A DNA stretch of 64,000 bases from Pseudoscleropodium purum (Eukaryota > Streptophyta > Bryopsida > Hypnales > Brachytheciaceae), in assembly GCA_963969395.1 (NCBI GenBank), contig OZ017805.1, forward strand, positions 5,580,001-5,644,000, in the 5' to 3' direction. Both the position numbers and the translations under genes were made by a program. The notes below the pieces were generated by a model, which was not told the origin of the DNA, did not search any database, and was given only the letters and a program-made list of their open reading frames with translations. Numbering within the stretch: position 1 is the first letter of the stretch; each line of letters starts with the position of its first letter. This document shows positions 9,302 through 44,739 of the stretch, piece by piece.

Positions 9302-9568
9302 CAGGGTGGACAGGATGGTCAGACGTCCGGGACGTCTGGACGCGTCCGCTGTGTCCGTAGTGTCCGCTAACATTCACGGACGCCATCCGCCCTGTTCGCC
9401 CATCCGCACGTCCGCCCCACCCCGCCTTGTCTGCCCCGTCCGTCCGCCTTGCCCCGCCCGTCTGCCTTCCAACGGCGGGAGGGACACTGCGTCCGCTGGA
9501 GTACGGACGGACGGACGTCCGGGTTATGGATGCCTTTTTCGGGTGGACGTAGAGATTCATCAACCCTA
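9302..9568 (+). mobile_element. GC-rich hAT-type MITE 1
   Basis: This is a 267-bp element with ends CAGGGTGGA...TCAACCCTA, packed with CGGACG/CGTCCG motifs, and flanked by the perfect 8-bp duplication GTTTATTG (9294-9301 and 9569-9576). The 8-bp duplication and the unpaired outermost C/A bases match the Ac-type hAT pattern. It sits inside family A copy 1. The related copy 2 lacks it and aligns across the site without a gap. Open frames within it are by-products of high GC and not genes. Confidence 0.95.
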
Positions 9569-12305: not shown

Positions 12306-13436
12306 AATGAATATCTAGTTCTTGTTGCTATTGTTGCTAATAATGCAACTTATGTTCATTCTTGGAGCCTAAACGCAAGACTATCTACTATTCTACTAAC
12401 ACCCCAAAATATGCTAGCTTGTTTTGTAGTAACCCCCTCTTCAATGCCAATTACCATATAATTTTCTCTCCCTCCTTTGCCATCTGACAAACCAAACACT
12501 ATACAAAAATACCATCTTCAATACCCTATAAATCACATTCTATATCTAAATTGGGGACAAACATACAAACATGTTACATGTCACAATACAAAAGTTACAA
12601 TTTTGTACAATTTGTATGTAATTATTGTACAACTTGTTGAATATAAATAAGAAAAAATACTAAAATAATACAATTATCCAAGTATTAACAACACGAAAAC
12701 TTGCACAAATTGTATTGATTATACTACAATAGGTACAACAAGAAAGATCTCAGTAAACATGAAGTACAAATGAATACAAATGAAGTACACATAAGGAACG
12801 ATATATCCAAAACGTTTCTCAACTATACACACCTGAGATACAAAAGTACAAACAATACAACTAGAAGGGCAATAGTAAACATCAGGTACAACAAAAAAGA
12901 CCATAGTAAACATGAAGACAAATCAAGGAACCCAGAATAATTGCAAATAACGATGTATCCGAAACATTACCCAACTATACATACCTAAGATACAAAAGTA
13001 TAGACAATACAACCAAAAGGACAATAGTAAACACCAAGTATAAATCAATTATCTCTAGACACCTTTTTGGTAACAATCTACACAAAATATAACAGAACAA
13101 TACAAAATTGACATAGCATGATTCAAACAATACAACCAATGTTATAAAAACTACCTTTCTCCCAATCCCCTTAATTCCAAAGAAACTAGGGGAACCAAAC
13201 AAAACTATACAATATACACCAATCAATTCAAAGTTAGACCAATTATAATGCAATTTTATAATATCACCTTCATCCTTGATGGTTGTTCTACACTATTAGA
13301 TTGTTAAGCAAATTTTTGTTGCTACATCGCTCCTCAGTGCTAATCCTTTAGTGATGATAGTAGCACATGCTACTTTCAATGTTGTCCATTCTTTACCCCC
13401 ACCTCCAAAGCATCTACAACCATGAAAAACCCTCTA
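12306..13436. repeat. GTAC-rich AT region with a tandem duplication
   Basis: The DNA resembles the 4-6 kb GTAC-rich repeat. A segment of about 100 bases at 12795-12890 (GATATATCCAAAACGTTT...AATAGTAAACATC) recurs at about 12950-13045 with substitutions, a period near 155 bases. Frames here are long only because stop codons are diluted by TAC/ACA repeats. I find no domain. Confidence 0.45.
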
Positions 13437-13444
13437 ACCAAAAC

Positions 13445-13625
13445 CAGGGTTGACACGACGTCCAGACGTGGACGTTGTGTCCGCAACATCCGCTGACATT
13501 TGCGGTCTCGGCGGACGCAGCGTTCGCTTGTCACCCCGTCTGCCTTGTCCGCCCCGCCCATCTGCCCCGTTCGTTTTGACGGCCCTATTTCCCCCGACCG
13601 CCCTACCCAAACTGCCCCGCGGTCA
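13445..13625 (+). repeat. Left terminal GC-rich block of the cargo element
   Basis: After CAGGGTTGAC the block continues with GGACGTTGTGTCCGCAACAT and CCGCTGACATT, matching MITE 2 base by base over most of the first 80-100 positions. It then diverges into further C/G-rich sequence and gives way to AT-rich DNA. In hAT elements such subterminal motif clusters are transposase-binding sites; that role is inferred here. Confidence 0.8.
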
Positions 13626-14020
13626 CTCCCTTAATCTTTAAACAATTAAATGTTAAATGAAGTGCAATGGTTCGTGATTTGTTATTAAAACAATGTCTCT
13701 TATAAATTGAAAGATTATAAAGTTTGACCACGAGTCCATGATAGTCTTGAAACTATGAAAAAATTCCAATTCATTTTCAGAAGGCAAACTAAAAAAGTTT
13801 GTGACTTCAAATATATATATATACTATTTAAAAAATCGAGATCAACACAAATACAAACATAATCAATATGGGCAAAATATATTGAATTTAATATAGAATA
13901 CCATACATTGTGCACATTTGGCTAATTGCACATATAATTTTTTTCATTCCAACTCTATATTTCTAAATTAATTTTTAATGCCTATATAACCTATTGAACT
14001 ACTACTTCTACACTACCAAT

Positions 14021-15514
14021 CTAATATAAATGGCAGAAATGTTCATCTGGCATCGGCCAACGATATGTATTAGAAAATCGCGTAATAACATGGGCCAAAC
14101 TAGTATTTTCATCGTCAGTCTTCGAAGAAATGCGCTTCAAGTAAGCATAAAACACTTTTGCAAAGTCATGAAAGGGAAATTGTGTCGCACTAGGTGTTTT
14201 TCGTAGCAAGTTGAAATATGCCTTTGACATGTTGTTTCCATTCATCCGTTGAGCAATTTTTCGAATGGCATACTCTTCCGACTTACGTGAATACATCGGA
14301 ATGACTTCCACATTTGCACCTGCTTTATACAAATATGCAATACGTGGATCCACCCACCATCTCCTCTGCAAAGTTTGTTTCATCTCATTTGCTGATGTGA
14401 ATGTGTACAAAGACTTCATTGGCTGAGAAACTAAGGTGGTCATGCCCCAATCGCAAACTCCAATGTACACACGTGACTCATTCTCTGGAAAATGCAACAA
14501 GATGTTATCCGGAGAAAGATCATTGTGCAAATGTCCAGCAAAATGCACTGCATACATTATATGCATAAACGCCCATGTAAGCTTTGTGCGCTTCTTCCGA
14601 TATCGCCCTAAACGGTGAGCTTTTATAACCTCCTCTTCGGTTGGATTTGTATACATCAAACGGATTTGAATGTTGTCTGGATAGTCCTTATTCATATTCA
14701 ACATTTGTCAAAGAGTTCCACCATTCCACCAATACGCATGACCTTCACACGTCGTTCCGTGCACCGCAGCAAACCGTATCACACCCGCATGTGGAATTCG
14801 AACAACCATTGATTCGTTTTGATGTTCTAACTTTGCAAGATCAGGTCGAGTTTGGTAGTGAATGGATTTCTTTGCCGCAAACTCCCAATAAGGAAGTATT
14901 CCTGAACATCCTTCAATACGAACCTTTCGAATCGTTGCATATCCACCTCTCATCGTTCTATCATCAACAGCAATCACGCGTGTTGTATCTGGAAGTGCTA
15001 TGAGGTGCCGTTTGGTCCTTTCCGCTTCAGCAACTCCATCATTGCTTTTCTAACAACCAATTGAACCAACTCGATTGTGCTTTTTGGCGAATGGAGCACA
15101 TCGCCCCCTAAACAAGTCCGTTTTCGGAATCACTTCTTCAAACTGGGCGTCATTGGGTCGATACTCCTTTCCATATTTAACCAAAATGACTTTGGAATTC
15201 CACAAAGCGTCATGAACCTTGTTCTCCAAACATTTGGTGAAGTACGTTTTATGCATTTCGTCATACCACTTCGCGACATTCAATGCATCCAACAACATTT
15301 GTGTCATGTCTACCTTGAATTTAGACACGCACTCCTCTTGATATGTGATGTATTTATTGTCTAAAAACAATGTTGTTTCCGATTCATAAAATTGAATGAT
15401 GCGCTCGATCATGAATTTCTTGCATTCTTCCGAAGGACTTTGGCGAGCTACCTCCAAGTTTGATGGTTCCTCTCCATGTTTTAGCTTCGCAACTTTCTTC
15501 TTCCCCTTCGGCAT
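14021..15514 (-). pseudogene. Divergent protein kinase-like gene, two in-frame stops
   Basis: One frame of 497 codons runs from ATG 15514 to the stop at 14021, interrupted by TAG at codon 155 (15052-15050) and TGA at codon 269 (14710-14708). The first 150 residues are basic then helical, with no known domain. A kinase domain follows: a glycine-rich-loop-like RGGYATIRKV (about residues 189-198), a VAIK-type lysine in FAAKKS (about 215), the catalytic loop HNDLSPDN (330-337, matching HRDLKPxN) and a DFG-like DWG (355-357). The three catalytic landmarks (K, D, D) are present, so the ancestor was probably active; DWG for DFG and the weak glycine loop are unusual. It is the leftmost gene of the cargo element, tandem with the next gene, with its own TATA/CGGACG promoter. 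Whether it was captured from the host cannot be told here. Confidence 0.8.
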
Positions 15515-15710
15515 CGTGACAAATGAAATTGATATAAATCAAATTTTTTAATTTAAAATTGAATTCACACGCAAGTGTTCAAAAAATTGGCAACAAGGGG
15601 GCCCCAATAAACCACTCTTGCCTTGCCTCGGAAAGGAGCCAATGGAGGATGAACCACCAAGTTCTCCGCTCTACCTTGCATTCACAAGGGGCAAAGCAAA
15701 AGTGACAATG

Positions 15711-15880
15711 CGGACGGCCCGTCCGTCCATCTTATAAGGCACGGACAGCCCCAAACCATCCGCCCAATGGGACGGGCCGGGGGTGGCGGACGCATCGGCC
15801 GTCCACCTCCCCGAAACCCCCGAGCCCCGTCCGCCTGATCGGACGGCCACGGGAGGACAAATCAAGCGTCCACCTGATCC
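15711..15880 (-). promoter_or_regulatory. TATA plus CGGACG-rich promoter block of the kinase-like gene
   Basis: On the minus strand the block reads CCTTATAAGATGGACGGACG, with the TATA-like core at 15731-15739, about 220 bases upstream of the ATG at 15514. CGTCCG/CGGACG repeats lie on both sides. The block is a sharp GC island between AT-rich sequences, like those before the other two genes. It lacks the AGGGTTGA terminus, so it is not another MITE. Confidence 0.6.
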
Positions 15881-16481
15881 GATTTATTTTCCATATTTGA
15901 AAATAGAATCTAAAGAAGAACCACTAATTGTCTAATTTGGGCATTTTTTCATACCAATAAAAAAATCATTTTAGTTTTTAGCAATCGTTGAATGAAAAAT
16001 AAAAAAAATTTCAAATATTCAAATAATTCAATCTTTCATAAATTAATTAGAATTACATTTATACCATTTACGAGTTTCTAAATGTAATAAACACACAACA
16101 ATAATTTCAAAATACACACCATGCTAGTACATATTTAACCTCGAATGCTGAATTCAAAAATAGACATAATATGGCTCTTACAAAGTTACATTTCTTCTTC
16201 ATATTTTTATTATTTATCAAAGTCGCTTATAGCCTTATACATCAACGCTATTATAAAATAATACAATGATGTCTTCAACAATATGCTTGCCTACATACAT
16301 ACTTGGTGTACACTATTACACAATACTTTTTGAAAAAATGAACAAAATTGTTGTTCAAAATTGTTCTATTCATTTAAAATTTTGTACTACTTCTACCAAT
16401 CTAGTGCTCTATACTTGTCGTGAGAGTAAAAATGAGAAAATGGAGCAAATACATGCTCACTATATATACTTGCATGTTTTT

Positions 16482-17744
16482 TTATTCGGAATCTGAATCG
16501 GACTCAAATTGTTGACCGGTGCCTCTTCTTTGTACTCCAATGAATGGACCACCTCCGTAGTTTCCGTGATATCCACTCGGTGCACCTCCTTGTCCATAAT
16601 TTGAACCTCCAAAAGTAGGAGGAGGAACCGGAGTAATAGGCTCTGATACTCTTTCATTTGAAGCCCCATAATAAGAGGTCCTATGATGCCCATATGAATC
16701 ACTTCTAGTTGATCCCGGATAGTATTGGGCGCTTCCGTGAAGAGAGCAACTATACTGCGAGGTTACATGGCTTCCTCCACTACCTTCGGAGCCCACTTGA
16801 GTGGGAATCGTATAATATGAACCAAATCCACTAGACCTACCATAGTGTGTGTTGCCATAGCTACCTGCTCCACCTTGAGAGCCAATTTCAGGGGGAGTGC
16901 CATAATGAGAACCAACTGCACTTGAACCACCATAATGCGTGGATCCATAGCTCCCTCTTCCACCTTCATATTTATTTTGAGGATCGTAACCAGAGTATGA
17001 ATCACGTCTTCCTTGTTCAAATTCTCGCGTTCCATGTTCATGTCCGTAGAACCCACCATGCCTATCTTGCCGCTCACGATCTTGAAGGCTTCTACATGTT
17101 GCCTCTTGCATTTGTTGTTCAAATTCAATTCGTTCTCGTTCTTCTACCCGCTCGTGCCTAACTCCAAATGTGACAGGCGCTTGCATATCATCGTCATCAT
17201 CGTCATCATCCCACGCATCTTCAGCATCTCGTAGAACAACTGAAGGTTGTTGTAAATAACCTCGATTGGACCACTCTGGCATGCAATCGCTTGCGCCCCT
17301 CCACTGTGTATCTATAACGACATCCGTGCGCATATAGTTCTCCACATTGCGACCTGTAGTGGTACGCCAGTCCACATCCTTATAGAGTACAATCTCTGCC
17401 CAAACCATTGCCATAACATTATAATTCATTATATTTGGTTTGACGCTTTTAATGCCAAGAACTCGATGCACTTGTGTATATTGTTGTTTGAAGTGCTCAC
17501 TTTGGCACGTAGATATTTGTCCTTCTCAACGTGGCGCTTGGTGCTCTACACGTTCACGTCGCCAAAGTTTTTGAATGTGAGTCATTTTCACATACTTCTT
17601 GCACATTGAGCAATCCCACACTCTTGTTGGTTCCTCTTCCTATCTCGGTTCACCCACGAACAATGGATCAGCCCAAGCATCCCAATCGAACAATTGGGGT
17701 CTTCCCTTTCGACTACTTTTTTTGGGTGTTCTATCTTTCGGCAT
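16482..17744 (-). pseudogene. Zinc-binding N-terminus plus Gly/Ser/Tyr-rich tail, two in-frame stops
   Basis: ATG 17744 opens a 420-codon frame ending at 16482, with TAG at codon 35 (17642-17640) and TGA at codon 73 (17528-17526). A basic start (MPKDRTPKKSSRKGR) is followed by C45-x2-C48, YVKM, H56, IQKLW, C80-x3-H84, then YNVMAMVWAEIVL and VDW (to residue 126). This block aligns with the N-terminus of the RING gene with identical spacing C-x7-H-x23-C-x3-H. A short Asp run (about residues 179-186) precedes a charged helix. The last ~170 residues are a low-complexity Gly/Ser/Tyr tail with loose repeats (YGSTHYGGSS, YGNTHYGRSS), ending ESDSDSE. A zinc-dependent DNA- or protein-binding role is inferred. 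C-x2-C resembles the start of a BED finger, but the rest does not fit cleanly. Confidence 0.7.
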
Positions 17745-17914
17745 GATGAAGCCGAAGCAAAGAGAATGAAACAATTAGAAAGCTTAAGAACCAAAATTTT
17801 GATTTAATTAATTAATTAAAATTTTACAAGCGTGAACTTTGTGAAAATTTGTAACAATCTCACAACAATCGTTCACTCAAAGCGGAAGGGGCACGCAGAG
17901 CTTCCAATGCACTG

Positions 17915-18095
17915 GTCCGCCCACTCCAAAAGAGAATGATTGTTCGGAATGAGCCGTCCGCCTCCCCATATATAAATGCGGACGCCCCGAGGCGGACGTC
18001 CAGATCATGCGGACCAGATCAGTCCGCGCGTCAATTGGACGGCCATAACGGGGCGGACGGGTATCGGGGCGGACAGGGCGGACGGCTCATCTTAA
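17915..18095 (-). promoter_or_regulatory. TATA plus CGGACG-rich promoter block of the zinc-binding gene
   Basis: On the minus strand, GCATTTATATATGGGG (TATA core near 17968-17977) lies about 228 bases upstream of ATG 17744. It is flanked by GGCGGACGGC and CGTCCGCC repeats, the same layout as the blocks at 15.7 and 20.6 kb. Confidence 0.6.
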
Positions 18096-20480
18096 ACCCT
18101 AGACCTAATGAAACAAATTGTTCTTTTTTCAAAATCTCACGGTATAGATGTTTAACCCGTAAAGTTCTTTTCACTAAAAACACTTCAAACCTGCAAATAT
18201 CAAGTCTTAGAAGAAAAATACTTTGGGGCATATGTAACCGTAGGATCTTGTAGTAAATTAGTTGGAAAAGATGTGGAAAAAATTTTAGACAAATCCATCA
18301 TTTGGATTGTAAGATATAAGATATTGAATGTTTCATTTAAGAGGGCTACTCAATTATGTCTATTAATGAACAATTGGTAGGCTAACAAACTTAACTTAGC
18401 ATGTATTTTAATATTTGTTGCAATTGTTTTAGGAATATTATAACATAACACTATTATAATATTCTTATAAATGATATAGTACTAAATCATTTCAAAATCA
18501 ACAACATTCGAACACAATTTGTCAATCTTGTCTTCCATACTCCTTTAATGATATATATATATATATATATAAATATATATACATACATAAAATATATTTG
18601 ATAAATCAACATGAACAAATCAATGATTATATATTTCATAGATCTATTCTTCATCAATCAAATAAGAGTGCATGTTCAAATATAGACAAAGATAGTTTCT
18701 CCATCTGTTTCCAAAAAATAGATAAACAAATAGAGAAAGATATGAAGTGAATGTTACTTGGAGAATTGGAAAGAAAGAAATTGAAGTACTCAATTGCATT
18801 TTATTAAATTGGAAAATTGCATGTGGATGGCATGAATTAATCTTCATAGATGCTAAACTCATACGAGTTGCATTTCAACATTTATGATTTATGCAATTGA
18901 TTGAATTGAAAGCTCTTGTAATTACATTTTCAAATTTTCGATTCAATCATTCAAATTTACAAGAGTGATTTATGATAGATTTATGACTTTAAATGTGAAA
19001 GCATTCAATGCCTTTATGCGTTTGTTCATCAATATATTAATTTTAAATAAATAATATATATTTTTTATAACATATGCATAAACCATTCCATTAAACAAAA
19101 CAAAAAACTAAGAGCCAAGCCAAATAGGCTGGTCAAATGAAGAGAACAAGAGAATAAGAGCCCTACGAGACAGAAAACAAAGGAAAATAAAGAAAATATC
19201 AAAAGGATTCAAAGGAAGGAACAAGATGCATTCTTGCAAGACCTTAGAATACATAATGATTTCAAAATCCAAACACAAATATATTTTCTATTTCAATGAG
19301 AGTCAAAAATGAACTACCCTGCTCTCAAAGATTGTACAATGTACACGTTATACAAAATGAACATATAACAGAAAGAGTAGAAGACATTGTTTATCATGAT
19401 TGAAAACTAAAATGATTTTTTTTTTCTATGTAGAATATTTTATGAAATGTAACAATGTATTTAATTATCATAGTAATTGGTAGAAATCTTTGTGCAATAC
19501 ATAGAAACATTTCATTCATGTGGAGTTCTTTCATTTATTTAGGATTAAAATTGAAGTATTATACTCTACAAAGTACAAACCAAAAACAATACCATATACC
19601 TAAGTTCAAAAGTTTGCAATTGTTTCGTGAATTCATTTTGAAAACTCAAACAAAGAAATATTTTATAATCAATATCTTGTTCATTTGAATCATTTCAAAA
19701 ATCGAATTCCGAATTCAATTACTATTTATAATAGAAATTATATTTGTCAATTTTTTAGATCTTTAAACAATGAACCCTCTTTTTTAAAATTAATATTTAA
19801 AAACATCTGAAATAAGAATATTGGAATTACCCTTCAAAATAAATATAGCACATGTATAAGTGTATAATGTATTCTACTCAACCAACTCAAGTAACGAATT
19901 TTTCTATGTTTTTAAGGAAAAATATAGCCATACATGATTTGAAAGTTAAAACATTGATTCTTTTTCTTTGTTTTCAAATCTAATCAAAATTTCATTAAAA
20001 AATATGAAAGACTCGATGTTCATTTGAAGATCGTGATGCACTTCTAATTAGAAATCACAACCTTTCATTAAATATCATGAGGTTGAAATCCATTAAACTG
20101 TTATTCTAATTATGTATTGGGGCCTTTTTTTAAAATTTCATTTGCTTACAATGAAAAAGGAATTGATTATTTCTGCAAAACATTTGATTTCCTAATGAAC
20201 TTTAAGAAAATTCCCACCATCTTCAGATCTTCTCAAAACCTATTTAGAGGGATAATATTAGTAAATAATCCAAACATATTGAACTTAACCACATTCCCCT
20301 CATTCGTAAAACAATTTAGGGGAGAAAAGAAAAGGTTTAGGGTAATTAGGGTATAGGGTTTAGGATCTACATTTTTTTTTTTTTAAAATGATAAATCAAT
20401 TACATTGATCCTCATTTAGTAGTGATTATTAGGCTATTTTATTTTTGAAATGTTACCGCTCTTTTTGAATAATAATGGCC
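18096..20480. other. AT-rich spacer between divergent genes of the cargo element
   Basis: About 2.4 kb of AT-rich DNA without a supported gene. It includes a (TA)n microsatellite at about 18549-18590 and degenerate telomere-like GGGTTTAGG motifs near 20330-20365. It separates the two minus-strand genes from the plus-strand RING gene. Confidence 0.5.
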
Positions 20481-20494
20481 TCATAGGATGCACC

Positions 20495-20695
20495 AATGGA
20501 CAGCTGGGCGAACGCTGTCGGCGGTCAGTGTTTAAGTGGGGCGGTGAGCGTGTCCAAAGCGCGGACGGCGTCGGAAGACGGACAGTGCAGACAGTCCGGG
20601 CGGACGGCGCGTCCGCTACCGAAGCGGACGCGAGGTTCGGGGCCGCTTCGCGCGGTCCGGGGCAGGTCCAGCGACGGACGGCTATAAGGGTCGAT
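20495..20695 (+). promoter_or_regulatory. TATA plus CGGACG-rich promoter block of the RING gene
   Basis: GCGACGGACGGCTATAAGGG places a TATA core at 20682-20689, about 212 bases upstream of ATG 20901. It is preceded by about 180 bases of CGGACG/CGTCCG-rich sequence. The layout matches the other two blocks in spacing and composition. Confidence 0.6.
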
Positions 20696-20900
20696 TGACT
20701 TCCATTTCTTCTCACTTCAATTTTCCTTCGGTGCTAAGTTGGATGTGCTACTATTGCTTTATGCGCTAGTTGCTCCTACAGGGTGGAGAGTTGGGGTCCT
20801 CTATCTTTTGTTACTGTATTGCGGTTGATGCCATCACTTTTGACTATCACGTGAGATTTTTTTATTCACTTCAATTGGTTATTCAATCCAATTGACAATC

Positions 20901-23900
20901 ATGAATGGCGAAGGTGATCGAAATATGGATGGGGTGACTCCGGGAAGCGAAGCCAAGAAAAAGAGCAAAGTGAAGGGGGCTATGCATGACCTTTGGCTTG
21001 ACATTTTAAATGACCCTACAATTAAAGCAGAGAGTGGGTGGGAAGATGAAGATGCGGAGTATTGGACATCAAAAATGTGCAGGACCTATGTTAAAATGTA
21101 CCACATTGACAAGTTGTGGCCTCAGGAGTTGCACAAGAGTCATACACGGGATTTTTGTTGTAAACCATGGACTTGCAACAACAAACATTTTGTCCATCGA
21201 TCTGAGGAGGTGTGGCGTGTTCTATTCGGAAACAAGCCTTGAAGCAAAGGCTATGTTAATTATAGCATGGCGTGTATGGTTTACGCTGAACTTATATTAG
21301 AGCGCAAGATCGATTGGAGCACGTTTCCGACAACAACAGCTTGCCCACTTCTACTTGAAGCCAATCAAAAGGACATTCCCGACTTGTACAATTCAGAGGG
21401 AGAAACAGAAAAAGTATTAAAAAATACTATAGAGGTGAAAACGGATGGTGTGGAGAAAGCCTCAAATGTTGAAGAATTACAGTCTGTACAATCTCCAACA
21501 AAAGCAATCAATGAAAGCTCTTCGAAAAATGTAGGGAAAGATGTGGAGAAAAATGTAGAGGCGCAGGAGGGTGAAGTCTTTTCCACAGCTCTAACGCGTT
21601 TGACCTTTACACCAAATGTTGCGGCACAAACGGAAACGGAGTTTGTAAACAAAGGCAATGTTTGCACGGAAGGTGGGGAAACTTCAAAAAGTAAAGTAGA
21701 CGAAGTCTTGGCGGAGAAAGTGGCAAAGGCTAATGCTACAATTGATAGTCTGATAGCCAACAATTGTTTTGATAGTTTGGTCTACAAATCTCCGCCTATG
21801 CATCAAGGCGTTGAATTTAGTCTAGCGTTAAGTTTAGAAGACAAAGTACATACGCCTCGTGGACAAGGCGTGACGATTGATAATATATCCTCATTATGGA
21901 GTTCCGAGCGTAAAAGGCGGGCGGAGGAGTTTCCGTTTACAGCGGCATTGCCAAATCCTCTACATCGAACCTTGCAAGACATGTCCAATCCAAAACAATT
22001 GGAAAATCTTTTGAAGCTCTCGGTTCAGTTTGCTAACCTTCATGAAGAAATAGGCGGATCGTCTAACCCCGATGATGGTGCTACTGCTGTTCCAATGAGT
22101 CCACTTGCAGATCCAAAGAATGTTGCACATATACTTGATACAACTTTCAAGATGACGATGTCAGCTGAATTTTTAGCGCAAGTTGCTCCGACTTTTATGA
22201 ATTTGGCCAAGGAGTTTTCTTTCATAGCACCAGAGATGTTGAAAGGTGCTATAGCATTTCAAAATCTCACGAAGACTTTCGGACCACTTTTCGAAGAAAG
22301 AGATGTTCACATACTACAATTGGTGGAATATGAGAAAAAAGTTGCTGACCTTGGAGGAGTGGAAGCAAGGTGCAAAGTGTTGGAGTTGAAATTAAAGACT
22401 TCAGAGAGTGAGGTTGAACATTTAAATCAACAATCATCGAGGCAAATGGAGGAGTTGATGAAGATGCGTAAACGGATTGCAGAATTACAAGGGACCTCCA
22501 AGAATCCAAATGAGGTTGCAATCTCACCAGTGATTGTACTCGGAGACAGTCAAGAGACTTAAGAGAGTGAAGATAAGCTCTCTCTTCTTTTTGATAAGGC
22601 CGAAGCAAGCAACAACCCTGCCATTGTAAATGTACAAGAAAGTCACGACATGAGCATGTTAAAAGCGACACAACAACCATCAATGGAAAAACTTTCATCC
22701 GTTTACGTGAATGCGGAGACGCAAACGGAGAGTTGTGACTTTGAAGAGTTGAAGCATAAATTGGAGGAGGCAATTGAAGCAAAAGGAATTGTTGAATCCG
22801 AGTTGAATCGATTGCAATTGTGCTTGGATTTGGAGAAGTTTATGCCATCTAGCGGCTTGGAGTCTCAATGGTTAGCATGGGTACAAAGACTCCAAGATAG
22901 ACCCTCTGTAGTATCTTGAGCAATGGCAGGTCTTCAAACATTGGCAATGGGATCGAATGAAAATTGCAATGCCATTCAAAGCTCTTTGAGTTGGTTCAAG
23001 ACTATATTTGACCAACATCCTTCTAAGGGATATATGGAGATCACATGTTGGGGAGACATGGATGCCATGTTTGAGCGGTTAAACCACACAAAGAAGAACC
23101 AAGCTCCACCCATCAATTGGACCTTGGAAGTAGAGGAAGGATGGGTCCCTTACAACACACTTTCAGCACACATCAATGTGAAAGACAAGCGAGTGGTGCA
23201 TGCTTGTGATCCAGCCTCTCCAATCTTGGATGGTTCTTGTAGCCTTTGCCAAGGCCTCTTCGGACCGGAAGGTGCAGTAACCATGGGCCAATGTCACCAC
23301 ACTTTCCATATCACTTGCATTGTGAAAGCATCACTCATTCGTTCGGTGTGTGCCGAGTGTCGTAGTCCATTGAGTGCTAGGTTCTACGAAATGTTTGGTA
23401 TCTTGGAAGCTATGCCTCCAGGCCACGAGTACAATTGTTGGAATCTTCCACTTGATCAAGCGCCGTACAAATTTCAAAATTATCAACATTGGAGGAAGCC
23501 AATCCGGTGAAATGCAAATGAACAGAGGCATGATTTGTACGAGGAATCTGAACAACCATTGGATTTGGATGTGTAGATGACTCACAATAAAGAGGTGAAA
23601 TTGCGGGCTCAAGGAATCGTAGATGACGCGGCCCGTGAAATGTTTTGTCGCAACATGGGGGGACATTGGAGCTTGCAACACGAAAAGTTCTTTCGTTTTC
23701 CAGATAAAAAAGTGAAGAGAGGACCAAAAGACAGTTGGGTGGAAGTGAATTATGGAAAAGAGTTCGATGAGTAGTATAAGGCATACGACCATACCCTCGT
23801 AGGTAGGGCCCTTCTATTGTCGAAGTTGGAAGAGGCTGCAAAAGTTCGTACTGTCTACGATACAAATGGACAAACAAGCATAGGACATTCATCTATAGAT

Positions 23901-24299
23901 GTGGCAGCAGCATTTGATAGGCGCATTGGCGATATTATAGGGCATTGGAAGGCTTTCCTATTGGATGGAGACTGCCTCACAGCATGGCAAGGGAAAGGAG
24001 ATGATGAAGTTGTTCAAGCGATGGTAGATCGTATGGAGAGCAACTTGAGAACCTTGAAGGCAGACGAAGTCGATTTATCACCCAAAAAAAAAAAAAAAAA
24101 AAAGCGTGAAGAGGACGATGACTTCTCTCCGGAAACCAAGAAACAATTTCATAAGGTGGACATCGAAGTTCAATCTGGAGGGCAAATAGTCCGTCCAAGT
24201 CAACAATGGTCAACTCGTCAATCATCTGCTAAACTCCTCAGTACAACAGATTTTCCTTTTGTTTTGGAAGAAGGTAGTGGTCCATCCGGTGGAAAGTAG
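20901..24299 (+). pseudogene. 1,132-codon RING-H2 protein with shared zinc-binding N-terminus, broken by stops
   Basis: One frame runs from ATG 20901 (context CAATCATGAATGG) to TAG 24299, broken by TGA (21240), TAA (22560), TGA (22917), TGA (23508), TAG (23574) and TAG (23772). No frameshift is needed. Residues 55-140 repeat the domain of the neighbouring minus gene: C60-x7-H68-x23-C92-x3-H96, then MVYAELIL and IDW. A coiled coil lies at about residues 475-535. A RING-H2 finger (23238-23375) has C780-x2-C783-x14-C798-x-H800-x2-H803-x2-C806-x10-C817-x2-C820, the C3H2C3 pattern of E3 ubiquitin ligases. The C-terminal part (GGHWSLQHEKFF..., about 900 onward) is unrecognised and ends with a poly-Lys/acidic NLS-like tract from an A20-type run near 24084. 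Ubiquitin-ligase activity follows from the family; its target is unknown. Confidence 0.8.
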
Positions 24300-24595
24300 G
24301 ATTTGAGGAGAATTTAGTTTTTAAAAAACAATGGTCCTTTCATTGTTTAAAAACAAAAAAGAATGTGAAAGATTTAGATCTTAAAAAGATCGTATAGGAT
24401 TCAATAGTGATATTGGAACTATGTTTTCATGTATTTTGTTTATACATATATATTTATATATAAAGATGCTATATTTTCATTTGCGTATAAAAATATTTTT
24501 ATATGTACATCTTATTTTATGTGGATGCATTCATTTCTGATTATGTAACATTCAAATTACATAACAATATAAAATTTTCTAATGACTAATGGCAA
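24300..24595. other. 3' flank of the RING gene
   Basis: AT-rich sequence between the stop codon and the right terminal block. It probably includes the 3' untranslated region, but no specific signal can be singled out. Confidence 0.35.
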
Positions 24596-24781
24596 TGCGA
24601 AGTCCGCCCCGTCCGCCCTATCCGTCCACCCTGTCTGGTCTGTACGCCCGATCGCCCCGGCCGTCCGCCCCGCCCCGCGCGTCCGCCTTCCGACAGCGGG
24701 AGGGACGCTGCGTCCGCTAGCGTCCGGACGTCCGAAAAACGGACACTATTTTGTGGCGGACGTTGAGATTCGTCAACCCTG
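24596..24781 (+). repeat. Right terminal GC-rich block of the cargo element
   Basis: The block matches the right half of the MITEs: GCGGGAGGGACGCTGCGTCC, then CGGACGTCCG, GGCGGACGTTGAGATTCGTC and the terminus GTCAACCCTG. It has no left terminus of its own, so it is the right end of something longer. Confidence 0.85.
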
Positions 24782-25052
24782 ACCAGAAACTCATAATCCA
24801 CTCAATGGACTAAACTTGCCTGTAATTTAAAGCAGAGCATTCTATGCTCTTTGTGAAATTTACCAATATACACCATGGATTATAGAGGTATTTACATACA
24901 AAGACAATCATCTCAAAATTTGGGAATGGAAAATCACACAAGGTGCACATGAAATCCCCTCCTCCATTGCCTATTTCTCCCCTAACGTACACCATCGATA
25001 ATGGCTTCAAATGAAATCCACATGATGCATGCCCTAAATAAGCATGTTCCTC

Positions 25053-27219: not shown

Positions 27220-27454
27220 CAGGGTTGATAGGACGGTCGAACGTCTAGGATGTCCGGACGCGGACGTTGTGCCCGCAGCGTCCACTGACATTCGCCGTCC
27301 CGTCCGCCCTGTCTGTCCGCCCCACCCATCCGCCCTGCCCCGCCCGTCCGCCTTCCAACGGTGGGAGGGACACTGCGTCCGCTGGCATCCGTGAGGACAG
27401 ACGTCCGGGTTACGGACGCTTTTTTGGGGCGGACGTACTGATTTGTCAACCCTA
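27220..27454 (+). mobile_element. GC-rich hAT-type MITE 2
   Basis: This is a 235-bp element, CAGGGTTGAT...TCAACCCTA, flanked by the perfect 8-bp duplication CTGAGCAC (27212-27219 and 27455-27462). Its left ~100 bases match the left end of the 13.4-24.8 kb element and its right ~180 bases match the right end, as expected of an internal-deletion derivative. Confidence 0.95.
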
Positions 27455-29228: not shown

Positions 29229-29620
29229 TTACAGAAAATGAGTATTCTTATGAAATAAATCCTCAATCTTAATAAAGATGTATATGTGGTGATTTTTATT
29301 TTCTTAAAGATGTACTCAATCCTTGAAAACAAATAAAAATGGGTAGTCACATGTTTGTAAAATAAATGTGAATCAAATATAGTAATGAAAGGAAATGGGT
29401 ATTTTTATAAACTAATTCCTAAACCATAATAAAGATGTATATGTGGTATTCTTATTCTTGTAAGGAAATAATCAAACTTTCAAAACAAATAAAAATGGGT
29501 ATTCATACTTTTGAAGAAGAAATATGAATAGACTATAGTAATAAAAGAAAATGGATATTTTTATCAAAACAAATATTCCAAGCGCCATAATAAGGATTGT
29601 ACATAATCATATTTGTATTT
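29229..29620. repeat. AT-rich minisatellite, second part of left arm
   Basis: Units such as AAATAAATCCTCAATCTTAA and AAAGATGTATATGTGG recur, matching the 34.8-35.5 kb segment. Confidence 0.55.
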
Positions 29621-30963
29621 TTGTGAATTCATAAGAAAACTAAATTCAAAATAGTTTTTGGGATTTTCCAACATAAGATAACTTTCAATTCCATGTGTTG
29701 TAGTTTTAAAATGTGGAACCCCAAAAGATATGACATACATTCAAAAAAAAGAGAAAAAAAAAATATGTGCAAGTTGAAAATAAGGTAAGATTTAAGAATT
29801 TATGAGAAAACTAAATTCAAAATAGTTTTCGGCATTTTCTAACACAAGACAACTTTCAATTCAATAACCCATGTGTTGGAGTTTTAAAATATCGAAGCCT
29901 AAAGGACATGACATACATTAAAAATAAAAATAAAAAACAATATGTGTAAGTTGCAAATAAGGTAAGCTTTGAGAATTCATGAGAAAACTAAATTCAAAAT
30001 AGTTCTTGGCATTTTCCAATGCAAGACAACTTTGAATTCAATAACCCATCTGCAGTAGTTTAAAAATATGGAAGCGCAAATGACATGACATACGATCAAC
30101 AAAAAGAGGAAAAAAAGAAATATATGCAAGTTGGAAAGAAGGTTAGCTTTGAGAATTCATAAGAAAACCAAATTCAAAATAGTCTTCGGCATTTTCCAAA
30201 GCAAGATAACTTTCAATTCACTAACCCATGTGTTGTAGTTTAAAAATGTGGGAGCCCAAAAGACATGACATACATTCAGAAAAAAAAAGGAAGAAAAATA
30301 TGTGCAAGTTGGAAATTAGGGAAGCCTTGAGAATTTATAAGAAAACTAAAATCAAGATAGTTTTCAACATTTTAAACGCATGCCAACTTCGAATTCAATA
30401 ACTCATGAGCTCTAGTTTTAAAATGTGGAATTCCAAAAGACATGACATACATTAAGAAAAAAAAGAAAAAAAAAAAAGAAATATATGCAAGTTGGTAAGA
30501 AGGTAAGCTTTGAGAATTCATGAGAAAACTAAACTCAAAATAGTTTTTAACATTTTCCAAAGCAAAATACCTTTCAATTCACTAACCCATGTGTTGTAGT
30601 TTAAAAATGTGGATACCCAAAAGACATGACATACATTCAAAAAAAATAAAAATAAAATATGTGCAAGCTCAAAATAAGGGAAGCTTTCAGAATTCATGGG
30701 AAAACGAAATCCAAAATAGTTTTTGGCTTTTTCCAATAATCCATGTGTTGTAGTTTCAACATGTGAAAGTCCAAAAGTTATGACATACATTCAACAAAAA
30801 GAGGAAAAAAAATATATATGCGAGTTCAATATAAGATAAGCTTTGAGAATTCATAAGAAATCTATATCCAAAATAGTTTTTGGCATTTTCCATCGTGAAA
30901 TAACTTTCAATTCAACAACCCATGTGGTGTAGTTTAAAATTGTGGAAGCTCAAAAGGCATGAC

Positions 30964-32009
30964 CACTACTAGAAATGCACAACCAAAACAACGGAATTTC
31001 AACTAATTTAAACTATTTGGGATAGTAAAATGACCATTTTGTAACTTTCTGTGAAAATCAACCAAATGGCAAATTCTTTCTGTTGATTTGGAGAGAGCAA
31101 TGACTAAATCAACAAGTTTTTGTTGAATTTGGAATCTTTTAAGAATCTTTTAAGAATCTTTTTGGAATATTTGAGAATCTAAGTACAATGATTTAAAAAA
31201 AAATTAATCATGTAAAATTCAGTCTTTTTTCAATTCAGCAGACTTTAGAGTCCATTCTCGTATAGTAGAATAAAAAATTTCAAAAAACTTAGAATTGAGA
31301 AAAGTTGTAAATTCAAGCTACCTTTCACCTCCAAAATCCTTTTGTAATTTAGATCCTCTAATCAAAAGTTGTAGACAAAAATTAGAGGGGTAGTTAGGAA
31401 CATTTATTTTGACATTTTCAAACATCCTCTCTGATTTTTGTCCATAACTTTTTATTGGAGACTCAAAATCATAATCGGATTTTTGGAGGTTAAATTTAGT
31501 TTGAATTTATAACTTTTATTAGGTATAAGTTTTTTGAAAAAATATGTTCTACTATAACTAAATGACCTCTGAAGTCTTCTATAAATACAAAATTCATGAA
31601 AAAACAATGTAAAAACTAAATATATAAAATTCTAGTTCTTATGTGGTCACTTAAGTATTTAGGTGGTTTAGTGGTTGGAACCTTGGACCTCTAAACATGA
31701 CGTCCAAGGTTCAAATCCCCTTGGAGGTACCTACCCACGTGGTGGGTGGTCTAGGTGGCCTTTGCTTGCACGGTCAGCCGCCTGGGTGGTTGCTTGGGCA
31801 AAAAAAAAATTATTTTAAACAAGTAGTGCCCAAAAAAATTTTAATTCTAAAAAAAATTAAATTAAATTATTTTTATTTGTCCAAAATAACAGAAAAAATC
31901 AACAAATTTCAATTTGATTTTGTTCAAAACAACACCTCTAAAATGACTAAATCATTCAACAGATTTGAATTAAAATTTTGTTGTTTTGGTCATGAATTTT
32001 CTAGTAGTA
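30964..32009. mobile_element. Non-autonomous CACTA element
   Basis: The element starts CACTACTAGAAATGC and ends TTTTCTAGTAGTA, with the 3-bp duplication GAC on each side (30961-30963 and 32010-32012). CACTA...TAGTG ends and 3-bp duplications define the En/Spm superfamily; the last base here is A where G is expected. The satellite unit resumes exactly after the insertion (GGCATGAC then ACACATTAAAAATAAAC). No transposase is present in its 1,046 bp. It carries a SINE-like sequence. Confidence 0.8.
31655..31811 (+). repeat. tRNA-derived SINE-like sequence inside the CACTA element
   Basis: TGGTTTAGTGGTTGGA (A-box-like, about 31664) and GGTTCAAATCC (B-box, 31710-31720) are about 47 bases apart. 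They are followed by a GC-richer body and an A-rich tail beginning at 31800. The B-box is a near-perfect tRNA match. The 5' half does not fold convincingly into a functional tRNA, so a SINE head is preferred over a tRNA gene. Confidence 0.55.
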
Positions 32010-32080
32010 GACACACATTAAAAATAAACAAGAAAATAAAATAGGTGCAAGTTGGATATAAGGTAAGCTTTGAGAATTCA

Positions 32081-32436
32081 TAAGAAAACTAAATTCAAAA
32101 TAATTTTCGGTATTTTCTAATGCAAGACAACTTTCAATTCAATAGTCCATGTGTTGTAGTTTCAACATCTGAAAGTCCAAAAGACATGACATACATTCAA
32201 CAGAAAGAGGAAAAATAAATAAATGCAAGTTGGAAAGAAGGTGAGCTTTGAAAATTCATAAGAAAACTAAATTCAAAATAATTTTCGGTATTTTCTAATG
32301 CAAGACAACTTTCAATTCAATAGTCCATGTGTTGTAGTTTCAACATCTGAAAGTCCAAAAGACATGACATACATTCAACAGAAAGAGGAAAAATAAATAA
32401 ATGCAAGTTGGAAAGAAGGTGAGCTTTGAAAATTCA
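32081..32436. repeat. Perfect-looking 178-bp tandem duplication
   Basis: 32081-32258 and 32259-32436 appear identical, while neighbouring satellite units differ at many sites. Identity stops a few bases into the next unit (TAAGAAATCTAT), so this is a recent local duplication. Confidence 0.85.
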
Positions 32437-32822
32437 TAAGAAATCTATATTCAAAATAGTTTTCAGAAATTTCCAACACAAGATAACTTTCAATCCAACA
32501 ACCCATGTGGTGTAGTTTAAAATTGTGGAAGTCCAAAAGGCATAACATACATTAAAAATAAACACAAAAATAAAATGGGTGCAAGTTGGATATAAAGTAA
32601 GCTTTGATAATTCATAAAAAATCTATATTCAAATTAGTTTTCAGGAAATTTTCAACGAGAGAAAACTTTCATTTCAACAACCCATGCACTATAGTTTAAG
32701 ATTGTAGAAGCCCAAAAGATATGACATACATCTGAATAGAAGAAGAAAAAAGAAATATGCAAGTTGGAAACAAAGTAGACTTTAAGGATTCATGAAAAAA
32801 CCCAATTTAGAATAGTTTGTGG

Positions 32823-33036
32823 TAGGGTTGACGAATCTCTACGTCCACCCGAAAAAGGCGTCCGTAACCCGGACGTCCATCCGCATGGACGCCAGCGGAC
32901 GCAGCGTCCTTCCCACCGTCGGAAGGCGGATGGGCGGGGCGGACGGGGCGGACGGCGTCCGCGATTGTCAGTGGACGCTGCGGACACAGCGTCTGTGTCT
33001 AGACGTCCCAAACGTCCGAACGTCTTGTCAACCCTG
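32823..33036 (-). mobile_element. GC-rich hAT-type MITE 3
   Basis: This is a 214-bp element in reverse orientation (TAGGGTTGACG...TCAACCCTG) with the perfect 8-bp duplication GTTTGTGG (32815-32822 and 33037-33044). It split a satellite unit within the AATAGTTTTTGGCATTTTC motif, and the unit continues after it. Confidence 0.95.
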
Positions 33037-34785
33037 GTTTGTGGCATTTTCTAATGCAAGACAACATTCACTTCAATAACCCATGTGCTGTAGTTTGAAA
33101 ATGTCGAAGCTCGAAAGACATGCCATACATTCAAAATAAAGAGGAAAAATAATATGTGCAAGTTAGAAATAAGGTAAGCGTTGAGAATTCCTCAGAAAAC
33201 TCAATTCAAAATAGTTTTCCGCATTTTCCAAAGCAAGACAATATTCAATTCAAAAACCCATGTGTTGTAGTTTTAAAATGTCAAAGCTGACAAGACATGA
33301 CATACATTCAAAGAAAAAGAGGAAAAAGAATATGTGCAAGTTCCAAATAAGGGAACCCTTGAGAATTTATCCAAAAATTCAAATCAAAATAGTTTTCCGC
33401 ATTTTCCAACACAAGACAACATTCAATTCAAAAGCCCAAGTGTTGTAGTTTTAAAATGTCAAAGCCTACAAGACATTATATGCATTAAAAAAAAAAGAAG
33501 AAGAATATGTGCAAGTTGAAAATAAGGTAACCGTTGAGAATTCCTCAAAGAACTCAATTCAAAATAATTTTTTGCATTTTCCAACACAAAACAACTTTCA
33601 ATTCAATAACCCATATATTGTAGTTTTAAAATGTCAAAGCCCAAAAGACATGACATACATTAAAAAAAAAAGGACAAATAATATGTGCAAATTCAAAATA
33701 TGGAAAGCATTGAGAATTCCTCAAAAAACTCAATTTAAAATAGTTTTCGGGATTTTCCAATGCTAGACAACTTTCAATTCAATAACCTATATGCTCTAGT
33801 CTTAAAATGTGGAAGCCCAAAAAACATGACATACATTATAAAGAAAAAGAGGAAAAATAATATGTGCAAGTTGCAAATAAGGGAATCCTTGAGAATTTAT
33901 TCGATAACTCAATTCAAAATAGTTTTCTGCATTTTGCAATGCAAGACAACATTGAATTCAAAAACCCATGTATTGTAGTTTTAAAATGTCAAAGCCTACA
34001 AGACATGGCATACATTAAAAAAAAAAAAAGAAGAAGAAGAATATGTGCAAGTTGGAAATAAGGTAACCGTTGAGAATTCCTCAAAAAACTCAATTCAAAA
34101 TAGTTTTTGGCATTTTCCAATGTAATACAATAACCCATGTGCTGTAGTTTTAAAATGTTGAAGCCCAAAAGACATGACATACATTCAATAAAAAAGAGGA
34201 AAAATATATGTACAAGTTGGAAATAAGGAAAGCATTGAGAATTCCTCAAAAAACTCAATTCAAAATAGTTTTTGGCATTTTCCAACGCAAGACAATTTTC
34301 AATTCAAAAACCCATGTGCTATAGTTTTAAGATGTCAAAGTGCAAAAGACATGACATACATTAAAAAAAAAAAAGAGGACAAATAATATGTACAAGTTCA
34401 AAATAAAATAAGCATTGAGAATTCCTTTGAAAACTCAATTCAATATAGTTTTCGGCATTTTCCAACGCAAGACAACTTCCAATGCAATAACCCATGTGCT
34501 ATAGTTTTAAGATGTCAAAGTGCAAAAGACATGACATACATTAAAAAAAAAAAAGAGGACAAATAATATGAACAAGTTCAAAATAAAGTAAGCATTGAGA
34601 ATTCCTTTGAAAACTCAATTCAAAATAGTTTTCGGCATTTTCCAACGCAAGACAACTTCCAATGCAATAACCCATGTGCTCTAGTTTTAAAATGTGGAAG
34701 TCGAAAAGACATGGCATATATTCAAAAGAAAATAGGAAAAGTAATATGTGGAAGTTGGAAATAAGGTAAGCCTTGAGAAAGAAAT

Positions 34786-36065
34786 TATATGAATCAACCA
34801 TTAGAATGAAAGAAAATGGATATTTAGATTATTTTTCTAAAGGATATATTTAACAATAGTAATGAAGAAAAATTGGGTATTTTTATGAAAGAAATACTCT
34901 AGGTGCCAAAACAATGATGCAAAGGATTTTTATATTTTTGTAGAATGAATATGAATGAGCTATAGTAATGGAAGAAAATGGGTATTTTTATGAAATAAAT
35001 CCTCATGCATAATAAAGATGCATTCTTGTAATGAAATGATCAACCTCTTAAGCAAATAAAAATGGATATTTATATTTTTCTAGAAGAAATATGAATGGAC
35101 TATAGTAATGAAAGAAAATGGGTATTTTTATGAAATAAATCCTCAACCATAATAAAGATGTATATGTGGATAATTTGATTCTTGTCAAAAAAAAATTCAA
35201 TCCTTAAAAACAAATAAAAATGGGTATTCATATTTTTCTAGAAGAAATATGAATAGACCTTAGTAATGAAAGAAAATAGGTATTCTTATGAAATAAATTC
35301 TCAACGATAATAAAGATGTATATGTAGATATTTTTATTCTTGTAAGAAAATACTCAATTTTTGAAAACGAATAAAAATGGATATTCACATGTTTGTAAAA
35401 TAAATGTAAATAAAGTATGGTAATTAAAGGAAATGGATTTTCTTATGAAATAAATCCCAAACCATAATAAATACTAGACCATAATAAGGATGCATATCCT
35501 TGTATTTGACTATTTGTATTTTTGTAAAAGAAATATGAATGAACCATAGTAGTGGAAAACATGGCTATTTAAAAAACAATCCAACAATAGTAAGAATAAA
35601 TATGGATATTTTTATTCTTGTAAAGAAATATTCAACCGTTGAAATGATAAAAGATGCGTATTCTTACAAAAAAAATGTTCAATCATAATAAAAATAAATG
35701 CAGATATTTGTATTGTTATAAAAGAAATATTCTATCTACAATAATTACAAAAATAGGTATTCTTTTTATTATAAAAGAAAGATTTAACGATAATAGAGAA
35801 TAATAATGGAAAGGAAAGAGTCAACAATATTAAAATATATTATGATTGTATTCTTATTCTTATGAAAGAAAGATTAAATGATAATAATCAATAAGAGATG
35901 TTTCGTTTTTTATTAAAAGAAATATGTGATAATAACTATTGTTTTTATTCATATAAAATAAATTTGTTTAATGATAATTAAAGAACTAATAATTTCATTC
36001 TTATCAATAAAATAAGTGATATTAAATTGTAAAGATATATTCTATTTTTATAAAAAGATTGTAAG
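34786..36065. repeat. AT-rich minisatellite, right arm
   Basis: Repeats of AGTAATGAAAGAAAATGGGT, TATGAAATAAATCCTCAACC and ATAATAAAGATGTATATG continue the left-arm repeat. The satellite therefore seems to have been inserted into, or grown within, this repeat. Confidence 0.65.
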
Positions 36066-36140: not shown

Positions 36141-39100
36141 CCATGCAACTATAAATGTACAAGAGCTAGTATTTTATACATATGCTTTCAACCTTTCCTT
36201 GTACATCGGATTTCAATATTTTCCTTCTATAACTAACAAGATAAGAGTTCTACCTATTTTTAAATGTGCATGCAAATGGAGAATGTACCTGAAAAAGTAC
36301 ACCCCATAAACTAGACGTAGTTGTAGGTGAATCCTAATTTATACAAGATGTGACAAACATTCATTGGTTCCCTATCTACTCAGTTGTGTACTTCTAAAAT
36401 CACAATTGAAGCTTCCAATACAAAAGACACATTTGCAAGAATATTTTGTTACAAAGATATCAATGTATACCAATATAATAGAACTATAGTGGGAGTTACA
36501 CAAGATTTCATTAACTAAAGCCTAAAAACAGAACGCAATTGCATAAATATATACTTAGTAATTAGTTTTCAATGTTTTCCTAAGTACAAACCGATACACT
36601 AAGTACAAACCAATGCAATCTATATGTAAAACAACTAGGCAAAATTATCGAAATGCATAGTAGAACTTTTTAAATTTTGGTCTATTTGTTGCTGCTATGA
36701 ATTAATTCCAGCCTATCCAAGACAATCCCTCCAAAAATGCACCAACAATATGACAGTTTAATTGAATCTACTATTCTTCCCAAAAATCGTTGACTCAGAA
36801 CACAATGCTACATTTTCGGAGTTGGAATAGAATGTTGCTATTTTAGATTTGGAATATAATGAGCCTTGAGTGACAATCTTCATTCACTCATTTGTCCTTT
36901 CGTTTTTTTTTGCGAATTTTGCTTCTTGTAGACTTTTACCTCCGAGACCACATTCTTCTCAATGTTGCTATTCACAACTTCATTTGCATTTTGGTCGAAG
37001 GCATTCTCCACACAAGCCAGCATCTCCATTGCCATCTCATGATTGCGTAGTTAGCGTAAGATAGTAGCTCCAAACCACCCTCTCCTTGTTTGATACCATC
37101 ATTTTGAACAACTTCAAAACAAAAAAGTGATAGTCTATAAATAAACGAAGTGAAGGGAAATTCTAGCATGGCTATGGTTATTTTATTTAAATTGCCTTTC
37201 AAAGGCACTTATAATATCTACTAGAGTAACAATGATTGTAGACAATTATGTACGCAAAAGCAATATTGTACAAAGTATATCTTAAAACATATAGTATGTA
37301 CTTAAACAATGTATGCATTGTACAATTATTGTACTCTCTTGTCTTCTTCCAAGAAGAAACATATACCCCAAAACAATGGAGATCCTCAAAATTGTATCTA
37401 AACCATTGTGTACCTAACCACAGCAATGTTGTCCTGGAACATTATACATTCTACATAGTAATTGTATTGAATGACTCTGTGAAGGAGGCATGTTGTATCT
37501 AACAAGTAACAACATAAAGGCTATATTAATATATTGTGCATATTTTACTTTGATTGTACCCAATGAACTTCGTAAACAATGCTTGCACCTCGTAATCAAG
37601 GCGTGTTGAATCTAACAATATAGATGTACTAAAATATTGTATATATTGTACACTAATTGTAGCTTCTAAACGACGTGAAGGAAATGTGGTGTAAATCAAC
37701 CACAAAAGAAATGTTATTAACAAATGAACACTATAAGTGAGCCTTGCATTCTCAATTGGCCTTGACATAAATCTAATATTAAGACCAATTCATACTATAG
37801 ATAAGACAATCGTTCTAATGTTGAGATTGATTCATATAGTAAAAAAGTGCAGCGCTCTAATCTCAAAAACAGATTCACATCGTAAACAAGACATGTGTTC
37901 TCAATAAATCTCGGTAAAAATCAACCTTTGCGGAAATCAAACTTACTACATTCAACATCCCTCCTCATTGCTTCTCTCCGTCAAATCTCAAAGTGTAAGC
38001 GGAGTTGTGAGGTTGGTTCACTTTCTTCAACCTCTATTCATAGTGCAGCAAATTCAAAACTAGACACATGGTAGATACTAGCCAAGATTAGAACATTGTT
38101 TTTTTTAATGTGTAGGAGAGAATGTCGCTGCAAAAGCACCCTGGATAATTTGGACGTTGAAGGTGAATCCTAATTTAGATGATATGTGGTGGATGGCTAT
38201 TGGTCCTTGATGTATACTAAGTATGCACAATATGCTCCATGTATGATGGGCAAACCCTAGACGTTCAAGTTGAAAAATAGGGCAAAAATCTACAATAGAG
38301 AAAACTAGAACAAAAATGTCATTATACCAAAATGAAATGTTGGCCCATGTCACCAAAATGGTCTTTTTACAAATTCCAAAATGAAAAATGAAAAAAACAC
38401 TCTTTAAAGTCAAAATTTGGGCCTCGTACTAAAATTACAAATTTTCAATGATCTTTCCTTATAAAATTCTATAAACCCTAATAAAGTGCCAAATCATTGT
38501 ACCTTAACATTAGACTATTGGATTTAATTATTTGAATTGCAAAAATGAAACCCTAAACTAAACAAAAAGAAGTACAACAATGCTAAAGCTAAATTTGTGA
38601 TAGTAAAAACATTTTATGTTTGTACTTCATACTTTGAATTAATAGATGAAAGTCACTTTTTGTTTTGCAATTTAGAATATACACATAATGTCCTACATTG
38701 ACTTATTTTTGTTTTTAAAAAAAATGACTAGAATTATAATAAAATTGACTCCAAACTTTTGTCTTGTATAGACTTGAGCCAAATATATATAAATTTAAAA
38801 AATATATATATATACTTATTTTTCTTATTTTTAATTTTTAGAAATAGGTTAGGGGGGTAGGAGTCCTAGCTTAAGAACTTTTGGAAAAATTAAAGGATGA
38901 AAGTTTAAAAGTTCTTACAATATATAAGATGTAAGATAGATACAATTATATAGGAAAAGATGAGTGGAAGTTTAGAGAGTTAAAGTCTAAAAGCTTTTAT
39001 GATGTAAGATGTAAGAAGTAGTTGAACGTTGTGTAAAACGGTTTAGGATGTAAAACATAAGAGAGGTACAAGTATATGGAAGAAGATGATTGGAGGTTTA

Positions 39101-40225: not shown

Positions 40226-40229
40226 TTGT

Positions 40230-40560: not shown

Positions 40561-40679
40561 ATTTGGGTCATCAAATGGGACGGTTGGGCAATCAAATAAC
40601 TTTTAGAATTTGGAGCTTCAAATTTTGCCAAGTAAGAATAAAGTTACTATGAGTTACATTTTCTACATGACATGGCAGT

Positions 40680-41170: not shown

Positions 41171-41320
41171 TTCGTCATGTTTTGTAAATGCTTAAGAGGT
41201 CTTCAAGCTTTAGGAATTGAAATAGATCATCTTATAGTAAGTCAATTGCAAGTCCTTAACATTATCAATTAGATATTGAAAAATATAAGCATATAATATT
41301 TCTCTATATAATTGACCATC

Positions 41321-41340
41321 CACTACAAAAAAAGGATTGT
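41321..41340. mobile_element. Single CACTA-like end
   Basis: CACTACAAAAAAAGGATTG is a typical CACTA terminus. No matching opposite end was found in the window, so it is a truncated remnant or chance. Confidence 0.3.
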
Positions 41341-44731: not shown

Positions 44732-44739
44732 CATAGCTA

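Follow-up and report, generated by a model that had tools for sequence, protein, structure and literature searches.

The window analyzed here is a 64,000-nucleotide segment of the genome of the moss Pseudoscleropodium purum (assembly GCA_963969395.1, contig OZ017805.1, positions 5,580,001 to 5,644,000 of the forward strand; coordinates below are positions within this segment), and it contains an 11.3 kb element with hAT-type ends at coordinates 13445 to 24781 on the plus strand. The element is bounded by a perfect 10-bp terminal inverted repeat (TIR) and encloses three genes, all readable without introns, that encode a protein kinase (gene 1), a zinc-type protein (gene 2), and a protein with both a zinc-type domain and a RING-H2 domain (gene 3). 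A sequence-only reading of this DNA had noted kinase-like, zinc-binding, and RING-H2 genes between two termini, and had proposed that they travel as cargo moved by a hAT transposase acting in trans. The genes are real, with 65, 25, and 16 database hits, respectively.

The ends of the element are as that reading placed them, in matching orientation and each homologous to one half of the miniature inverted-repeat transposable elements (MITEs) nearby. The exact 10-mer CAGGGTTGAC forms the inverted repeat, at 13445 on the plus strand and 24781 on the minus strand, and recurs in the window just once more, at the left terminus of MITE 3 (33036, minus strand). Short TIRs with a CAGGG-like start characterize the hAT superfamily, and the TIR of this element is of that kind; the CAGGG start is also found in Ac/Ds. 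Three MITEs are present, MITE 1 (9302 to 9568, plus strand), MITE 2 (27220 to 27454, plus strand), and MITE 3 (32823 to 33036, minus strand), and all three are flanked by exact 8-bp duplications (gtttattg, ctgagcac, and ccacaaac, respectively). Over stretches of our choosing, the left end of the element shares 77-83% similarity with the MITE left halves (66 aligned bases) and the right end shares 79-84% with the right halves (110 aligned bases). Taken MITE by MITE, the left and right values are 77/79, 83/83, and 83/84%, and because the two ends are about equally far from each MITE they point to one insertion rather than two of different age. The left terminal region (13445 to 13640, plus strand, 62% GC) matches the MITE left halves and lacks 17 bp that are present in the MITEs; within the right terminal region (24600 to 24781, plus strand, 68% GC), the last 133-136 nt align at 76-78% with the right half of each of the three MITEs.

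The 8-mers flanking the element, accaaaac on the left (13437 to 13444) and accagaaa on the right (24782 to 24789), agree at six of eight positions as had been reported, a level reached by 0.8% of random pairs of 8-mers from the window, and they are probably, though not provenly, an 8-bp target-site duplication. A search within the window for an empty site, using the joined flanks, gave only a 31-nt match (E 0.015) that is not convincing. Just to the left of the element there is a 95-bp direct repeat, 84% identical, at 12797-12891 and 12949-13043.

Gene 1 (14021 to 15514, minus strand, 497 codons) encodes the kinase. Alignments were built from subsets of the hits, consisting of 31 (A1) and 39 (A5) of the 65 for the kinase, 12 (A2) and all 16 (A4) for the RING protein, and 15 of the 25 for the zinc-type protein (A3). 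The K, E, D, N, and D residues of the kinase are invariant in all 39 relatives of the larger alignment, and we take these to be the catalytic residues of the familiar kinase motifs. In a structural model of the gene 1 relative P0006 (predicted local distance difference test score, pLDDT, 84.9), a helical N-terminal domain precedes a kinase fold, and the 50 hits listed by Foldseek are kinases. Comparison with viral models gave only generic kinases among the named matches listed, and a search of PDB by sequence gave two weak kinase hits.

Gene 2 (16482 to 17744, minus strand, 420 codons) encodes the zinc-type protein, which has a Gly/Tyr/Ser-rich tail; its family has no Pfam match below E 0.005, and PDB searched by sequence returned nothing useful. 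Assignment of the zinc domain to zf-C3HC was considered and set aside, as three of 16 members match and the best E value (0.0054) is too weak. Gene 3 (20901 to 24299, plus strand, 1132 codons) encodes a zinc-type domain, a long helical middle, and a canonical RING-H2 domain. The eight C3H2C3 ligands are invariant in all 16 gene 3 relatives, each of which also matches zf-RING_2 at E 0.01; this pattern is that of RING-H2 E3 ubiquitin ligases, and the gene 3 product is a putative ligase. Conserved stretches are found outside the RING as well. The structural model of the gene 3 product has a mean pLDDT of 45.4, too poor for a fold search, and PDB searched by sequence returned RING proteins plus one coiled-coil match. 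Genes 2 and 3 have an N-terminal domain in common (hhalign probability 99.8, E 4.5e-28), in which the Cys and His positions have the same spacing, C-x7-H-x23-C-x3-H, with the first Cys not invariant in gene 3; no domain common to the kinase and gene 3 was found.

This copy of the element is degenerate and all three of its genes are broken, with two, two, and six in-frame stops in genes 1, 2, and 3, respectively, and no frameshift in any of them. All ten stops are at sites where the nearest relatives covering the position have Gln, Arg, or Trp, and other sequence data include relatives that lack these stops. Reassignment of the genetic code is rejected, because TAA, TAG, and TGA are all used and because of the Gln, Arg, and Trp residues in the relatives. 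For the window itself, the kinase and RING matches in Pfam fall short of the curated cut-offs, and the relatives match better. Among 147 derived amino acid sites, 69 require C>T or G>A changes, 14 the reverse, 45 a transversion, and 15 multiple steps, with four ambiguous; by gene, the C>T/G>A and reverse counts are 25/7, 25/4, and 19/3 for genes 1, 2, and 3. A site was called derived where two relatives agree and the window differs, such that the change could lie on the relatives' side. With the polarity not certain, the bias is in the direction expected of methylated DNA decaying by deamination.

The element is organized in compositional layers, with the ends and the segments upstream of the genes at 61-69% GC, the genes at 42-46%, and the spacers at 23-26%. 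These GC-rich segments have a short motif, CGGACG, in common. On both strands there are 52 sites in the window, and 50 of these are within eight segments totaling 1,737 bp: the three MITEs, the two element ends, and one GC-rich segment preceding each gene. Of the other two, one (41942) is in a decayed right end of the family described below and one is isolated. Each upstream cluster contains five CGGACG sites, at 197-326 bp from the ATG for gene 1 (15660 to 15885), 211-335 bp for gene 2 (17880 to 18095), and 226-339 bp for gene 3 (20490 to 20690); the divergent gene 2 and gene 3 clusters are separated by a 2.4 kb AT-rich spacer (18100 to 20480, 26% GC) with no domain in the Pfam scan. Within the element all 24 sites fall either in the terminal 200 bp, with eight at the right end and one at the left, or no more than 500 bp upstream of the ATGs, regions that comprise 16.8% of its length. 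In dinucleotide shuffles the CGGACG count was reached by none of 500 in seven of the eight segments; the exception is the left end, which has the one CGGACG site but also three GCGGAC sites, a count reached by none of 500. GCGGAC (41 of 45 sites within the segments) and GGACGG (27 of 35) behave similarly to CGGACG and less cleanly. The upstream clusters are not inserted MITEs: the 10-bp ends are absent from them, and alignment to MITE 3 and to the left end extends over no more than 35-39 nt of the gene 2 cluster. Neither these clusters nor the in-frame stops figured in the sequence-only reading, and placement of one hexamer at a fixed position before three genes as well as at the ends suggests that a single factor serves ends and promoters.

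A six-frame Pfam scan of the whole element, with stops read as X, revealed no transposase domain; the only families matched were kinase and zinc-finger/RING, alongside two coiled-coil-like matches, and none exceeded the curated cut-offs, so that a transposase that is highly diverged or decayed could have escaped detection. Because no transposase is recognizable inside, movement in trans is the simplest inference, and the element is designated hAT-type by its ends and not as an autonomous hAT. Searches of contigs for other copies returned one locus (L001), which was discarded as a chance match of approximately 40 residues on a bacterial contig of 63% GC.

The best full-length relatives of genes 1, 2, and 3 are 72, 71, and 71% identical, respectively, and may come from different genomes; one RING relative (P0071) is 95% identical over 71% of the query and is on a 49.4 kb contig. 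More distant relatives of the RING (P0073) and zinc (P0095) proteins, at 45% identity, share one source, and the single contig reported for each measures 17,649 bp; the two genes are therefore probably neighbors linked on one 17.6 kb contig. Most of the 106 hit clusters are small, and one cluster can mix assemblies, but six of them gather between 54 and 126 sequences within 90% identity (P0042, 126; P0043, 85; P0061, 79; P0102, 65; P0082, 59; P0037, 54). Such numbers are what mobile genes would produce and suggest that the genes themselves multiply. An organism is named for three of the 106 hits, all kinases, of which two are from Ceratodon purpureus (P0026 and P0042) and one is from a bacterial metagenome bin and is taken to be contamination. 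P0042 carries a KC19_VG locus tag, which we read as denoting the V sex chromosome, and is annotated as either hypothetical or a kinase-domain protein.

Elsewhere in the window there are probable traces of the same family. A probable old remnant of a gene-2-like reading frame was identified by tblastn at 40108 to 40554 on the minus strand, with a best E value of 1e-11 without low-complexity masking and 6.5e-6 with masking; its matched tail is Gly/Tyr/Ser-rich. A scan for the motif that tolerates deamination shows one further non-coding cluster away from the named ends, at 40901 to 41250 (5 sites per 300 bp, compared to a mean of 0.77), on the 5' side of this remnant and possibly a decayed motif cluster; the same scan also peaks in one window within the gene 3 coding sequence (22451, 5 sites). 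Together, the remnant and cluster (40108 to 41250) hint at an earlier insertion of the same element family. Farther along, at 41895 to 42013 on the minus strand, is a decayed right end of the element/MITE family that is 71% identical over 70 nt to MITE 2 (E 3e-8) and 61% over 119 nt to MITE 3 (E 2e-5), with E values from a search limited to 38001-44000.

We think it fairly likely that the element is a decayed copy of a DNA transposon, probably one of mosses, that has hAT-type ends and several genes, and that the three genes are long-term residents and not accidental cargo. The proposal of a mobile module thus holds insofar as there is one element with hAT-type ends and no recognizable transposase inside, and is revised in that the cargo is recast as a long-standing resident gene set, on account of the upstream motif clusters, the similar identities of the three genes to their relatives, and the probable zinc/RING linkage. 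Several observations weigh against this interpretation. The flanking 8-mers differ at two of eight positions, and the single CGGACG at the left end is no more than chance (163 of 500 shuffles reach it). The hexamer and the segments were chosen after inspection, with seven motifs tried, and the motif counts are therefore descriptive. The CpG depletion that old CpG methylation would predict is not seen in genes 1, 2, and 3 (observed/expected 1.02, 0.80, and 0.70, compared to 0.53 for the window). The zinc/RING linkage is read from the equal 17,649 bp and not from DNA, and no kinase hit has that contig size. The remnant at 40 kb shows gene 2 alone, and no usable second complete copy was found in viral contigs (searched with kinase, RING, and zinc profiles and the MITE-end pattern) or in genome contigs (searched with RING and kinase profiles).

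The principal alternative is a Pack-hAT, in which three neighboring host genes or gene copies were captured by chance and have no role in the biology of the element. The lack of a Pfam transposase and the broken state of all three genes speak for this, and hAT elements are known to capture gene fragments, if rarely (PMC3260210); however, the reading frames here are complete rather than fragmentary, terminal-motif clusters precede all three genes, the zinc/RING pair is apparently linked even at 45% identity, and the few large hit clusters suggest genes that multiply, though most clusters are small. We regard such a capture as unlikely. That the termini are two unrelated half-MITE insertions flanking a gene cluster by chance is very improbable: it would account for the two mismatched flanking positions and for the 17 bp missing from the left end, but not for the identical 10-bp TIR in inverted orientation, the similar divergence of the ends from each MITE, the six of eight flanking matches (p ~0.008), or the same motif in the intervening genes, and these observations together favor one element.

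In a further alternative, the element is a new autonomous transposon in which the RING or zinc protein is an unrecognized transposase and the kinase is its regulator. The probable conservation of a gene set sharing a motif with the ends agrees with this, as do the conserved stretches of gene 3 outside the RING, and one survey reports no hAT homologue in Physcomitrella (PMC6027215). On the other hand, Pfam detects no transposase domain in the element or the relatives, the gene 3 model is too poor to judge, the ends and the 8-bp MITE duplications fit ordinary hAT elements, and a MITE survey whose set included four bryophytes reports that nearly all of the 207 plant genomes contain hAT MITEs (PMC12550479). 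We consider an autonomous transposon improbable, if slightly less so than the paired half-MITEs.

This copy is probably non-autonomous and was probably moved by a hAT-type transposase encoded elsewhere, and a factor binding the CGGACG repeats may act at both ends and at the three promoters. Candidates for this factor are the transposase itself or the zinc-type domain common to genes 2 and 3, and the three genes could thereby be turned on and off in step with competence for transposition. On this view the kinase and RING ligase might act on the transposase or on silencing proteins, an accessory role that would, by analogy, resemble that of VANC in VANDAL elements. A bolder proposal, which we rate as decidedly unlikely, is that the element represents an undescribed class of moss DNA transposon that carries a kinase, a zinc DNA-binding protein, and a zinc/RING ligase as its own machinery, tied to the ends by one hexamer; one of these would be a new transposase, or the set would be a phosphorylation/ubiquitin switch that unlocks transposition or defeats silencing. 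If the favored resident-gene reading is right, the element would be a plant DNA transposon with its own kinase and ubiquitin-ligase genes as conserved parts controlled via the end motif, and would show a new way of coupling the expression of genes to transposition or anti-silencing. Large groups of similar proteins in moss data, for example the kinase cluster P0042, could then also be explained. Among the literature matches listed, no description of such an element was found in the titles and abstract openings.

VANDAL elements are Mutator-like. The VANC protein that they encode binds a short motif clustered in the non-coding regions of the element and causes loss of DNA methylation, as outlined in PMC5735166, and by analogy VANC is the nearest functional parallel known to us. 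The likeness is that in both cases the element encodes accessory genes and has a short motif clustered in non-coding regions of its own; the element described here differs in its hAT-type ends, and its motif binding and any hypomethylation are hypothetical. Maize Ac/Ds has short inverted ends, 8-bp duplications, and a hexamer, AAACGG, repeated in the terminal 200 bp and bound by the Ac transposase (PMC3260210). The moss element is similar in its short TIRs, in 8-bp duplications that are exact for the MITEs and probable for the element itself, in a hexamer repeated in the terminal 200 bp on the right, and in short non-autonomous derivatives, but its hexamer is different and scarce at the left end, the copy contains no recognizable transposase, and it holds three other genes with the hexamer clustered before each. 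Pack-TYPE transposons consist of non-autonomous ends around non-transposase genes (PMC13317346), an arrangement seen here also, although here the genes are complete, are probably conserved as a set, and share a motif with the ends.

Among ten open reading frames elsewhere in the window none has a Pfam match, and a kinase-like match at 43957-44070 has an E value of 0.004 at best. Tandem repeats of approximately 177-180 bp form an array at 29620-34811, within which MITE 3 is an interruption, and relatives of the repeats are found in inverted orientation at 60.1-61.4 kb. A duplicated block at 44722-48460 has copies approximately 2.27 kb apart, with pieces that are 71-84% identical, and is followed by a second duplication at 48577-50540 with copies approximately 1.47-1.48 kb apart.

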